From contig CAMBPP010000002.1 of the NCBI GenBank assembly GCA_945869715.1, positions 1 through 38,694 of the forward strand: DNA of 38,694 nt, in the 5' to 3' direction. This stretch comes from Bifidobacterium breve (GTDB lineage Bacteria; Actinomycetota; Acidimicrobiia; Acidimicrobiales; Ilumatobacteraceae). The translations under genes were made by a program, and so were the position numbers. The notes beneath the pieces were generated by a model. It worked only from the letters and a program-made list of their open reading frames with translations. It made no database searches and was not told where the DNA came from. Positions 9,029 through 36,391 of this stretch are shown in pieces; the first letter of the stretch is position 1; the number at the start of each line of letters is the position of its first letter.

Positions 9029-9643
9029 ATGGCAGTTTCTGAACCTCCTCAACACACCATCTCTTTTGGCCCCCATGTGGCCAACGATGCCGAATTGCGC
9101 CTGGTGGGTGATGTGAAGGGAAAGCGCGTTCTCGAGCTTGGGTTGCCCTATGGGCATGCCAACTCTGTGGCGATGGCGCAGTCGGGGGCGCGTGCCATGG
9201 CCATCGATAATTCTGCTGAGCGTATTGCCCTTGCCCGACGCACCGCTGAAACGGCAGAAGTACGCGTTGAGTTTCATCAGGCAGAGCTTGCCGACATGGG
9301 CTTCGTTACAAGCTCTTCGCTAGACCTTGTGTTGTGTATTGACAAACTGAACTCTGTTGACGACATCGACCGTCTCTTGCGCCAAGTGCATCGTGTGTTG
9401 AAATCAGAAGCATCTTTTGTTGCAGTGGTTGAGCACCCAGCAGCTGCGATGTTTGACAATGACGATGCTGTGGCGCGCCGCCCTTACGGAGCTGATGGTG
9501 CACTCACCATTGGTGAACTATGCATGTCATTACAACGCAGCAACTTTGCTATTGATCTGTTGTATGAACTCATGGCGCTGAATGCCCCGCGCGCACTTGT
9601 TCCTACAACACTTGCAATTCGCGCGCGCAAACTTGGTTCTTAA
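9029..9643 (+). CDS. Class I SAM-dependent methyltransferase
   Basis: 204 residues with a Rossmann-like SAM fold. Motif I is VLELGLPYGHAN (~35-46), where the usual GxGxG is altered to G-L-P-Y-G; motif II, MAIDNSAERIALAR, has the acidic residue that binds the ribose; motif III is LDLVLCIDKLNSV, and VHRVLKSEASFVAVVEHP follows. The family (Methyltransf_11-like) acts on many small molecules and no substrate can be assigned. Its TAA stop overlaps the stop of the convergent CCA-adding enzyme gene by three bases, an unusually compact tail-to-tail junction. No terminator hairpin is visible there. Confidence 0.8.
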   Translation: MAVSEPPQHTISFGPHVANDAELRLVGDVKGKRVLELGLPYGHANSVAMAQSGARAMAIDNSAERIALARRTAETAEVRVEFHQAELADMGFVTSSSLDLVLCIDKLNSVDDIDRLLRQVHRVLKSEASFVAVVEHPAAAMFDNDDAVARRPYGADGALTIGELCMSLQRSNFAIDLLYELMALNAPRALVPTTLAIRARKLGS

Positions 9644-11070
9644 TTTTTTTGTTCGCTCCACCACGCATCTAGCCGGCGACCAATTTCTTCGCAGCCCAGT
9701 AAACCTTCTTCGAGGCGAATTTCCATCAGAAAATTAAGTGCTTTTCCTACTTCGCGTCCAGGTTGAACACCAAGGCGTTGCATCACTTCAACACCATCAA
9801 GCTCGGGGCGCAATGCGGCGAGTTCTTCTTTTTCCATCAACTCTGCAATGCGTTTTTCAAGTTCATCCATGCGCTGCGATAACACCAGTGCTTTACGTTC
9901 ATTACGTGTGGTGCAGTCGCAACGAGTGAGCACATTGAGTTCGTTGAGCAATGGCCCCGCATCGCGCACGTAACGACGTACGGCAGAATCGGTCCATCCC
10001 ATTTGATATGTATGAAAGCGCAAATGCAATTCAACAAGTGCTGTAATTGCCTGCACGTCTTCGCTGGAATACTTCAATGCCTTCAAACGATCGCGCGTCA
10101 TTCGTGCACCAACTACTTCATGGTGATGAAAAGTGATTCCTTTTCCTTTATCAATTGCGCGCGTTTTTGGTTTACCAATGTCATGAAATAAAGCAGCAAG
10201 GCGAGTGATGCGAAAGTCAAAAGTGGGGTGCGCATCGGGGCGCACATTTTCCACCACAGCCAACGTATGCGTGAGTACATCTTTGTGGCGATGAATAGGG
10301 TCTTGCTCCACGCTCATGTTGGGCAACTCGGGAAAGAATTGGGCAGCAAGCCCCGTGTTGACCATAAACCACAAACCTGCAGTGGGGTGATCGGTGGTGA
10401 GCAGTCGATCGAGTTCGTGCTGAATGCGTTCGCGCGAAATGATGTCGAGGCGAGTTGCCATACTTTTCACTGCTTCAATAAGGCCTGGTTCCGCAGTGAG
10501 ATTGAGCGCCGAAAGAAAGCGCGCCGCGCGCAACATGCGCAGTGGGTCGTCACTAAAACTTTCTTCTGGCGACAATGGCGTGCGCAGAACTTTTGTCATG
10601 AGGTCGGCTGCCCCATTGAAGGGGTCAACTAAAACAGGACTAGATGAAGTGAGCTCGAGTGCCATTGCATTAATGGTGAAGTCACGACGAGAGAGGTCGG
10701 CCTCAATGTCGTCAGAAAATTGCACATCGGGTTTACGGGAATCGGGTGAATACGCCTCGGCGCGGTGTGTGGTGATTTCGTAAACGCGGCCATTCTTTTT
10801 GGCGCCGATGGTGCCAAATTTTTCGCCCTGTGCCCACACTGCATCGGCCCAGCCCTCGATGATGGACTTAATTTCGTGCGGTAAAGCATCCGTTGTGGCG
10901 TCGAAATCCATGTCTGGTGATGCTCCGGGCAGATGTGCATCGCTAGCTGGACCCAGTAAAAGATCGCGCACCGTGCCGCCCACCAGGTACAGGCGCTTAT
11001 TTGCCGCGGCAAAGCGAGCAGTGAGCGGAGCAAGTTCCTCTAAGACAGGGGTAAAGCGTTCGGGAATCAT
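9640..11070 (-). CDS. cca: CCA tRNA nucleotidyltransferase with HD domain
   Basis: 476 residues, the length of the actinobacterial PcnA/CCA-adding group. The nucleotidyltransferase head has GGTVRDLLLG (31-40) and the metal-binding DMDFDATTDA (53-62). RRDFTINAMALE and the neck/RNA-binding portion containing DPLRMLRAARF follow. An HD hydrolase domain lies near 255-340, with HRHKDVLTHTL and LFHDIGKPKT. The enzyme builds or repairs the 3' CCA end of tRNAs. In mycobacteria the equivalent gene (Rv3907c) also lies beside the DUF6049-MviN-sigM-trxBC-cwlM run and in the same opposite orientation, which supports the assignment. Alternative names are pcnA and cca. Confidence 0.95.
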   Translation of the reverse strand: MIPERFTPVLEELAPLTARFAAANKRLYLVGGTVRDLLLGPASDAHLPGASPDMDFDATTDALPHEIKSIIEGWADAVWAQGEKFGTIGAKKNGRVYEITTHRAEAYSPDSRKPDVQFSDDIEADLSRRDFTINAMALELTSSSPVLVDPFNGAADLMTKVLRTPLSPEESFSDDPLRMLRAARFLSALNLTAEPGLIEAVKSMATRLDIISRERIQHELDRLLTTDHPTAGLWFMVNTGLAAQFFPELPNMSVEQDPIHRHKDVLTHTLAVVENVRPDAHPTFDFRITRLAALFHDIGKPKTRAIDKGKGITFHHHEVVGARMTRDRLKALKYSSEDVQAITALVELHLRFHTYQMGWTDSAVRRYVRDAGPLLNELNVLTRCDCTTRNERKALVLSQRMDELEKRIAELMEKEELAALRPELDGVEVMQRLGVQPGREVGKALNFLMEIRLEEGLLGCEEIGRRLDAWWSEQKN

Positions 11071-34754: not shown

Positions 34755-35183
34755 GTGGCTCGTCGTTCGCTCGAAAAATCTCTCACCCCAGCACCCCGCG
34801 TGCGCCGGGTAAGCCGTGTGGTGCGCGACATCGACCCATGGAGTGTTTTCAAAGTCACCCTTGTTTTCCACTTTGCGTTGTACGTAATGGTCCTCATTTC
34901 AAGCATTTTGATCTGGAACGTGGCCAACGCAACGGGCACCGTCGACAACGTGGAGCGCTTTATGGAGTCCTTCGGATGGGAGACTTTTCGCTTCGATGGT
35001 GGTCAAATCTTCCATAATTTGTGGATCTTGGGCTTATTTCTGGTCTTTTTACTTACCGGTCTTGCCGTGGTGGTGGCGGCAGTTTTCAACCTCATTGCCG
35101 ACTTGGTGGGGGGAGTGCGGGTTTCTGTCTTAGAAGAAGAAGTCGTGCAGCGTGTGGTTGAGGGAAACCCCCTCGACCGTTAG
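34755..35183 (+). CDS. DUF3566 membrane protein
   Basis: 142 residues. A basic N-terminus (RRSLEKSLTPAPRVRRVSRVVRD) leads to VRDIDPWSVFKVTLVFHFALYVMV, the typical start of the DUF3566 domain. Two spans lie at about 32-55 and 96-120, separated by a polar loop with FMESFGWETFRFDGGQIF. These proteins lie after gyrA and before tRNA-Ile in most actinobacteria, as here. Start is GTG. No biochemical role is established. Confidence 0.88.
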   Translation: MARRSLEKSLTPAPRVRRVSRVVRDIDPWSVFKVTLVFHFALYVMVLISSILIWNVANATGTVDNVERFMESFGWETFRFDGGQIFHNLWILGLFLVFLLTGLAVVVAAVFNLIADLVGGVRVSVLEEEVVQRVVEGNPLDR

Positions 35184-35205
35184 GCTTCACCACCTGCATA
35201 CGTGC

Positions 35206-35282
35206 GGGGCTATAGCTCAGTCGGTTAGAGCGCATCCCTGATAAGGATGAGGTCGCAAGTTCGATTCTTGCTAGCCCCACCA
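35206..35282 (+). tRNA. tRNA-Ile (anticodon GAT), CCA encoded
   Basis: A 77-base cloverleaf: acceptor GGGGCTA pairs with TAGCCCC, the D arm is GCTCAGTCGGTTAGAGC, the anticodon stem CATCC/GGATG encloses CTGATAA with anticodon GAT, and the T arm contains GTTCGATTC. The 3' CCA is encoded. Its last base is also the first base of the ATG of the following small ORF. Confidence 0.97.
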
Positions 35283-35413
35283 TGAAACTTTTCCGCCGTG
35301 CACTTCTCGCCCTGGGCGTAGCAGTGGGCATGGCAACCGCTTTGCGCTTCAAAGGCAAAGGCGATGTGCCGCCCCAACAAGGCGGCTGGCGTGACATCAC
35401 CCCCAACAAGTAG
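35282..35413 (+). CDS. 43-residue membrane microprotein (DLW-39-like), overlapping the tRNA 3' end
   Basis: Too short for the ORF track. The reading frame MKLFRRALLALGVAVGMAT, then ALRFKGKGDVPPQQGGWRDITPNK, ends in TAG. It has one N-terminal membrane helix (~6-21), a short basic linker and a C-terminal GGWRDIT. Length, single helix and position after gyrA-DUF3566-tRNA-Ile are like the actinobacterial DLW-39 family, whose C-terminal motif also has Trp in an acidic context; that family call is tentative. The ATG uses the final A of the tRNA CCA and there is no ribosome-binding site outside the tRNA. An in-frame ATG at codon 17 would lose the helix. Confidence 0.6.
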   Translation: MKLFRRALLALGVAVGMATALRFKGKGDVPPQQGGWRDITPNK

Positions 35414-35455: not shown

Positions 35456-36391
35456 ATGATTGTTGTAGTGGGAACCGGCATTGTTGGCACACATGTGGCC
35501 GAGCTTTTGCGTCAGCGCGGGCATGAAGTGCGTTCGGTGTCTCACAACACCATCAACGAAGTAAGCCCCGAGGAAACCGAAGTAGTGGTTTTAGCCCACG
35601 CCGGTCACCACGAGCGGGTGGCACGCAGATTTCTTCAGCATGGTTGTTCAGTGGTGTCGGTGGGCGACGACTCAAAAGACGTGCTGGCGTTGCTCGACCT
35701 TCAAAGTGATGCGCTCAGCGCCGGGCGCACGTTGATAGTGGGCGCAGCATGTTCCCCAGGTTTGTCGGGGTTGCTCGTGCATTATCTTGGGGCAAAATTT
35801 GATGAGTACGACGAAATTCATGTTGCTGTACATGGCACCGCTGGCCCGCAATGCGCGCACCAACACCATCGTGTTTTGTCGGGAACCGCACTGGGGTGGC
35901 ATGACGATGAGTGGCTCAAACGGCCAGCGGGAAGTGGCCGCGAGTTGTGTTGGTTTCCTGAACCCATTGGCTCGCGCGACTGTTACCGTGCCGACTTGGC
36001 CGATGCGTTGTTGTTGAAGCACAGTTTTTCTCATGCGAATCGCATTAGTGCACGCGTATCGGCAACGCGCCGCGACCGTATTTTGGGCAGGTTGCCCATG
36101 CTCATTCCACCACATATTGAAGGCGACATGGGCGCAGTACGCGTAGAACTACGCGGAGTAAAAAATGGCCAACGTACTGTGGAAATTGCAGGCGCAGCAC
36201 ACCCAATGGGTCATATTGCTGGCGCAGTTGCTGCTGCAACCGCACATGAAATTGCCAAACACGCCGGAACCGATGCTGCTTTTGCGCCAGGCGTTTTCGG
36301 TTTGGGTGCCGAAGAATTACCAAACGCAGCCATCTTTGAAACTGTTATAAATTCCGGCGTGCGCGTACAACAGTTTTACGGCGTGCACTAA
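35456..36391 (+). CDS. NAD(P)-binding Rossmann oxidoreductase, saccharopine dehydrogenase-like
   Basis: 311 residues. The N-terminal dinucleotide-binding motif is IVVVGTGIVGTHVAELLRQRGHEV (GxGxxG at ~6-11), followed by EVVVLAHAGHHERVARRFLQHGCSVVSVGDD, a pattern seen in saccharopine dehydrogenase-like and related proteins. GAACSPGLSGLLVHYL near residue 100 is typical of that group's second segment. The C-terminal half has no clear catalytic signature, and the substrate is unknown. It is followed 11 bases later by a Fur-family gene on the same strand, so they may form a transcript. Confidence 0.7.
   Translation: MIVVVGTGIVGTHVAELLRQRGHEVRSVSHNTINEVSPEETEVVVLAHAGHHERVARRFLQHGCSVVSVGDDSKDVLALLDLQSDALSAGRTLIVGAACSPGLSGLLVHYLGAKFDEYDEIHVAVHGTAGPQCAHQHHRVLSGTALGWHDDEWLKRPAGSGRELCWFPEPIGSRDCYRADLADALLLKHSFSHANRISARVSATRRDRILGRLPMLIPPHIEGDMGAVRVELRGVKNGQRTVEIAGAAHPMGHIAGAVAAATAHEIAKHAGTDAAFAPGVFGLGAEELPNAAIFETVINSGVRVQQFYGVH

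Follow-up and report, generated by a model that had tools for sequence, protein, structure and literature searches.

A microprotein start codon set against tRNA-Ile suggests probable tRNA punctuation in Acidimicrobiia

In the 38,694-nt stretch of contig CAMBPP010000002.1 analysed here (the window), an open reading frame (ORF) of 43 codons opens with an ATG whose first base, 35282, is also the last base of tRNA-Ile(GAT), the single tRNA that ARAGORN finds in the window. ARAGORN places the discriminator at A35279 and the encoded CCA at 35280–35282. How can a protein be expressed from a start codon that shares a base with the mature end of a tRNA? The earlier note on this DNA had claimed that the start codon cannot survive maturation of the tRNA, and that maturation and expression compete; the overlap from which it set out is borne out by the ARAGORN and ORF positions. 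We favor a different answer, and regard it as moderately probable: tRNA 3′ processing would cut 5′ of the AUG, so that the mRNA left behind is near-leaderless and the layout amounts to tRNA punctuation in a bacterium. The relation would then be coupling rather than competition, because one cut would yield both tRNA and message, and coupling appears the more likely of the two. The analysis shows the reality of the gene, the recurrent position of its start, the absence of other start signals and the occurrence of the same junction elsewhere.

The microprotein is a real gene. Among seven congeneric species, the ratio of nonsynonymous to synonymous polymorphism (pN/pS) was 0.13 in the ORF frame, a value that rules out a chance ORF; the two alternative frames gave 1.33 and 7.5. 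A profile of the 43-residue peptide (MKLFRRALLALGVAVGMATALRFKGKGDVPPQQGGWRDITPNK) matched 106 of 296 genomes of the class and 267 of 397 genomes of the order; a single borderline match (E = 9.7e-4) was obtained outside the class, among 297 genomes across the phylum. The family consensus is M[KR]xxRRxxxALxxAxxxAxxLRxRGxGGxPPxxGGWREL, in which W36 and the GGWR motif are near-invariant. Profile searches of the window peptide and its relatives revealed no Pfam or NCBIfam model that covers it. The product is probably a short membrane-anchored protein, with R5R6, about 15 hydrophobic residues and a basic tail carrying GGWR, its helix being predicted from composition only. The earlier description of a cleanly built, small membrane protein is upheld in its first part and is probable in its second. 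One genome, G077, carries two copies of the gene (L064 and L079), each 3′ of a tRNA-Ile.

To place the start codon, positions were counted from the discriminator base (D) in 133 distinct loci with a readable upstream tRNA-Ile, and a start at D+2 to D+6 was termed flush. By this definition 37 of the 133 loci are flush, with the start within a few nucleotides of the tRNA 3′ end: 5 at D+2, 21 at D+3, 4 at D+4, 4 at D+5 and 3 at D+6. No start falls between D+7 and D+12; starts resume with 1 at D+13 and 4 at D+14, and continue onward. We count 13 families among the flush loci in the search tables, and a family-level uniform null, which is crude and controls kinship only roughly, put the cluster at P ~2e-5 and the empty zone at P = 0.003. 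A raw count of ATG or GTG (RTG) after tRNA-Ile over the class showed no clear excess at D+3, RTG being common by chance; the signal appears only when the count is restricted to loci whose start opens the conserved peptide. The D+3 junctions are spelled CCATG, CGATG, CAATG, CGGTG or CCGTG, and CGTG is also among the junctions of relatives that lack an encoded CCA. In the comparison across related genomes that the earlier note had proposed, the peptide is conserved; the seven species read from the genus all have the CCATG overlap without change, and it recurs in two other families (L264 and L130). The recurrent feature is the place of the start codon, not the CCA, and the overlap is incidental to the junction, since relatives keep the start position without an encoded CCA. 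The flush-junction sequence by which isolates could be recognized is TAGCCCCACNRTG.

Leaderless mRNAs are usual in actinobacteria. At the flush loci no other initiation signal was detected: neither a Shine-Dalgarno (SD) sequence (scored as GGAG or GAGG within the SD window, 0/37) nor a −10 box (TANNNT anywhere in the 30 nt 5′ of the start, 0/37), so that the box 6–9 nt before the start that marks a leaderless promoter is missing as well. In contrast, detached loci carry TANNNT ending 6–9 nt 5′ of the start in 37 of 81 cases (2.5 in shuffled sequence) and an SD sequence in 28 of 81 (shuffled, 7.3), and among loci whose tRNA falls beyond the examined stretch, TANNNT stands 6–9 nt 5′ of the start in 35 of 56 (shuffled, 1.5). 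Detached copies with such leaderless promoters include L092, L117, L069, L014 and L056. The sharp placing of TANNNT indicates that many lineages probably express the microprotein gene leaderless, using a promoter of its own, whose place is taken by the tRNA end in flush lineages. Because a flush junction leaves no room for an SD site or a promoter, expression of the microprotein must be tied to the tRNA, as the earlier note had held. All 37 flush start codons are ATG or GTG, the two codons with which leaderless translation starts in mycobacteria (PMC4633059).

The same junction recurs at other genes. In the draft genome to which the window belongs, Prs (ribose-phosphate diphosphokinase) has its ATG at D+4 of tRNA-Gln(TTG), as in four congeners, and PurU a GTG at D+6 of tRNA-Ala(TGC), the start lying at D+5 to D+7 in relatives. 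Four other genera of the family have GlmU flush with tRNA-Gln, with a start that the conserved N-terminal VSAIVLAAG motif fixes. Prs, PurU and the GlmU proteins of L341 and L336 were named from NCBIfam, and those of L325 and L333 by sequence likeness. The tRNA-Gln junction comes and goes, since tRNA-Gln(TTG) is not flush with a gene in 4 of the 9 species of the genus read (L317–L320). It is possible, though in our estimate not quite an even chance, that tRNA punctuation is a standing expression mode in Acidimicrobiia for several unrelated genes, including the essential GlmU and Prs, one cut at C74 giving a tRNA and a near-leaderless mRNA and tying output to tRNA synthesis.

Where such a cut might fall is suggested by the tRNAs themselves. 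Position 74 (D+1) is C in all 29 tRNAs read from the genome that contains the window, 13 of these tRNAs encoding the full CCA, in 133/133 tRNA-Ile loci, in 210/210 tRNAs examined from the class and in 11/11 from other actinobacteria. A templated C74 that is constant, with a full CCA that is not, is likely the trace of cleavage after C74. This constancy fits the cut published for Propionibacterium acnes (PMC3848588) and Streptomyces coelicolor (PMC4681348), where RNA-seq places the cleavage of CCA-encoding tRNAs between the two Cs and repair by the CCA-adding enzyme is proposed. We suggest that tRNA-Ile and the microprotein gene would be transcribed together, and that the endonuclease removing the 3′ trailer would act at the discriminator or immediately beyond it, with C74|C75 as the likeliest site and the bond directly behind the discriminator as the alternative. 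A C74|C75 cut would leave a downstream RNA beginning CAUGAAAC..., with a CAUG start, a 1-nt leader and an intact start codon; an RNase Z cut right after the discriminator would leave CCAUG..., with a 2-nt leader and the start codon again intact. The downstream RNA would be translated as a near-leaderless mRNA, and the tRNA would be completed by the CCA-adding enzyme. The genus has an RNase Z-like protein, and the CCA nucleotidyltransferase encoded in the window could restore a CCA that had been cut within.

The competition envisaged in the earlier note would have the peptide made only from unprocessed tRNA-mRNA precursor, 3′ maturation destroying the start and peptide output reading out tRNA maturation. 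The start codon does share A76 in the window's genus. In the predicted precursor fold the start region, 3′ of the acceptor stem, is unpaired, and an AUG single-stranded beside the folded tRNA makes SD-independent initiation conceivable. However, relatives keep the start position without an encoded CCA (CGATG, CGGTG, CCGTG and CGTG), where trimming to CCA would be unneeded, and the essential GlmU and Prs at the same junction are hard to square with expression solely from a short-lived precursor. The actinobacterial cuts on record fall 5′ of the A, and a C|C cut as in those two species would leave the AUG intact. Destruction of the start codon is therefore not a necessary consequence of maturation, the competition built upon it is unsupported, and we consider this account unlikely. 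A promoter within the tRNA gene, giving a separate leaderless transcript that starts at the AUG, was the other route the earlier note had allowed. Many detached loci do have leaderless promoters, but the −10 box so plain there is missing from the 30 nt ahead of the start at every flush locus, and the tRNA sequence fixes TAGCCC at that place, 4 nt from the start in D+3 loci; such a promoter is very unlikely. We also doubt that the junction is incidental packing, in which streamlining put the start at the nearest place that spares the tRNA and ordinary SD-independent initiation would serve on any transcript. The small genome, its dense gene order and the clustering of starts at the tRNA boundary speak for it, whereas the empty D+7 to D+12 zone between filled zones suggests two initiation modes rather than packing alone, and genomes as large as 3.5–4.8 Mb (G749 and G030) have flush junctions too.

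Several points weigh against punctuation by a cut 5′ of the AUG. Some CCA-encoding tRNAs of P. acnes are cut a few nucleotides further 3′ and then trimmed (PMC3848588), which lends support to competition, and a downstream cut with trimming of this kind would destroy the microprotein message. The RNase Z-like protein of congeners scores below curated cut-offs, and the window's own draft, 79% complete, yielded no full-length RNase Z, only partial, weak matches. Mycobacterial leaderless initiation favors a start codon at +1 (PMC4633059), and the commonest position, D+3, implies a leader of 1 nt after a C74|C75 cut or of 2 nt after a cut behind the discriminator. Close packing of a small genome could on its own bring start codons up against tRNAs, and the loci counted, being related, do not amount to independent events.

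The features discussed are collected in Table 1. The Rossmann-like gene begins 42 nt after the microprotein stop codon and may be co-transcribed with the microprotein gene. The candidate tRNA promoter TTGAGG/TAGGCT is kept in 7/7 congeneric loci; a strict consensus promoter scan 5′ of tRNA-Ile gave no match. Further 5′ of the DUF3566 gene lie dnaA, dnaN, recF, gyrB and gyrA, recognized by inspection of translations only, and this region is probably near the replication origin because these genes are there. The neighbors of the microprotein gene are DUF3566, a membrane protein of unknown function, and the gyrase genes. Close relatives of the window are freshwater metagenome-assembled genomes (MAGs), some of which bear the label Ilumatobacteraceae or Acidimicrobiales. 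The same locus, with a peptide 98% identical, stands on a public MAG contig (L364, CAMCZG010000015.1) whose title, Bifidobacterium breve, looks wrong.

Table 1 Features at the tRNA-Ile junction and at flush junctions of other genes; plain coordinates are positions in the 38,694-nt window, prefixed ones refer to other loci, strands as given
Feature	Location	Strand	Basis or remark
DUF3566 membrane protein gene	34755..35183	+	PF12089, E=2.6e-21, 76.6 bits vs cut-off 22.2; directly 5′ of tRNA-Ile
Candidate tRNA promoter (TTGAGG 35158-35163, 17 nt, TAGGCT 35181-35186)	35158..35186	+	By eye; weak, putative
tRNA-Ile(GAU)	35206..35282	+	ARAGORN
Putative processing site, C74 (35280) / C75 (35281)	35280..35281	+	Position-74 conservation and published cuts; alternative 35279|35280, right after discriminator
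Microprotein gene, 43 aa	35282..35413	+	In-frame selection, family profile, conserved start position
N-terminal Rossmann-like (NAD-binding) protein gene	35456..36391	+	Weak, sub-cut-off matches only
CCA tRNA nucleotidyltransferase	9640..11070	-	TIGR02692 tRNA_CCA_actino, 580.7 bits vs cut-off 438.8
tRNA-Gln(TTG)-Prs	L195:469-1497; also L313-L316; G000:C41	- (L195)	ATG D+4, five congeneric genomes
tRNA-Ala(TGC)-PurU	L173:647-1495; also L343-L345, L348-L350	- (L173)	Start D+5 to D+7
tRNA-Gln-GlmU	L341:1575-2657		ATG D+3, CCATG, as in window junction
tRNA-Gln-GlmU	L336:412-1497	-	ATG D+3, CGATG
tRNA-Gln-GlmU	L333		GTG D+3, CTGTG
tRNA-Gln-GlmU	L325		ATG D+4

Membership of the microprotein in the DLW-39 family (NF038356), which its position had led us to expect, was rejected on profiles. 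The window peptide gave no match to NF038356 (curated cut-off, 24 bits), and among 47 relatives one matched, at E=0.37; hhalign aligned the microprotein with DLW-39 over 7 columns at a probability of 10%, with only 8 sequences on the DLW-39 side. Both are actinobacterial microproteins of similar size, with a basic N-terminus, a hydrophobic stretch and a C-terminal Trp, and DLW-39 too lies 3′ of tRNA-Ile in several other actinobacteria; however, DLW-39 has DLWxEATD where the window family has GGWRE, and in the loci read its gene stands apart from the tRNA end. Of the ten strongest DLW-39 loci, five (L032, L038, L039, L040 and L041) have the gene 3′ of tRNA-Ile, three of these within 100 nt, and the 3-kb stretches examined for L033–L037 contain no tRNA-Ile. 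On these sequence comparisons, only a shared place can be claimed, not homology. A search of the open-access literature returned no paper on DLW-39.

The analysis adds an unannotated, strongly conserved microprotein family adjoining gyrA and DUF3566. If punctuation holds, it would explain the constant templated position 74 despite the variable CCA, offer a simple evolutionary route in which the tRNA end replaces the −10 box, and provide a testable link of tRNA synthesis to cell-envelope and nucleotide enzymes. It would also mean that leaderless translation permits a mitochondria-like layout of tRNA genes in a free-living bacterial clade; we found no paper on tRNA punctuation in bacteria in the open-access literature. 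Mitochondrial tRNA punctuation is usually viewed as a product of extreme compaction of the organelle genome.

Known systems resemble this junction in part. The C|C cleavage of P. acnes and S. coelicolor (PMC3848588, PMC4681348) would, at the same site, leave CAUG... downstream here, but the excerpts of those papers describe it for tRNA ends, without a link to a protein start codon. Actinobacterial leaderless mRNAs (PMC4633059, PMC3848588, PMC4681348) share the RTG start and the lack of an SD sequence, and detached relatives have the matching −10 box 6–9 nt before the start; at flush loci, in contrast, no nearby −10 box can account for the 5′ end, which RNA processing would produce instead. Alike in layout is tRNA punctuation in animal mitochondria, with a tRNA directly against the start codon, no SD sequence and a leader of 0–3 nt, where excision of the tRNA would likewise set the mRNA 5′ end. 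The present junction differs in being bacterial, in that detached relatives of the gene have other start signals, in that the start codon can share the templated CCA of the tRNA, and in that cleavage here is inferred. By analogy, then, the junction would work like the mitochondrial system, and the same mechanism may underlie both.
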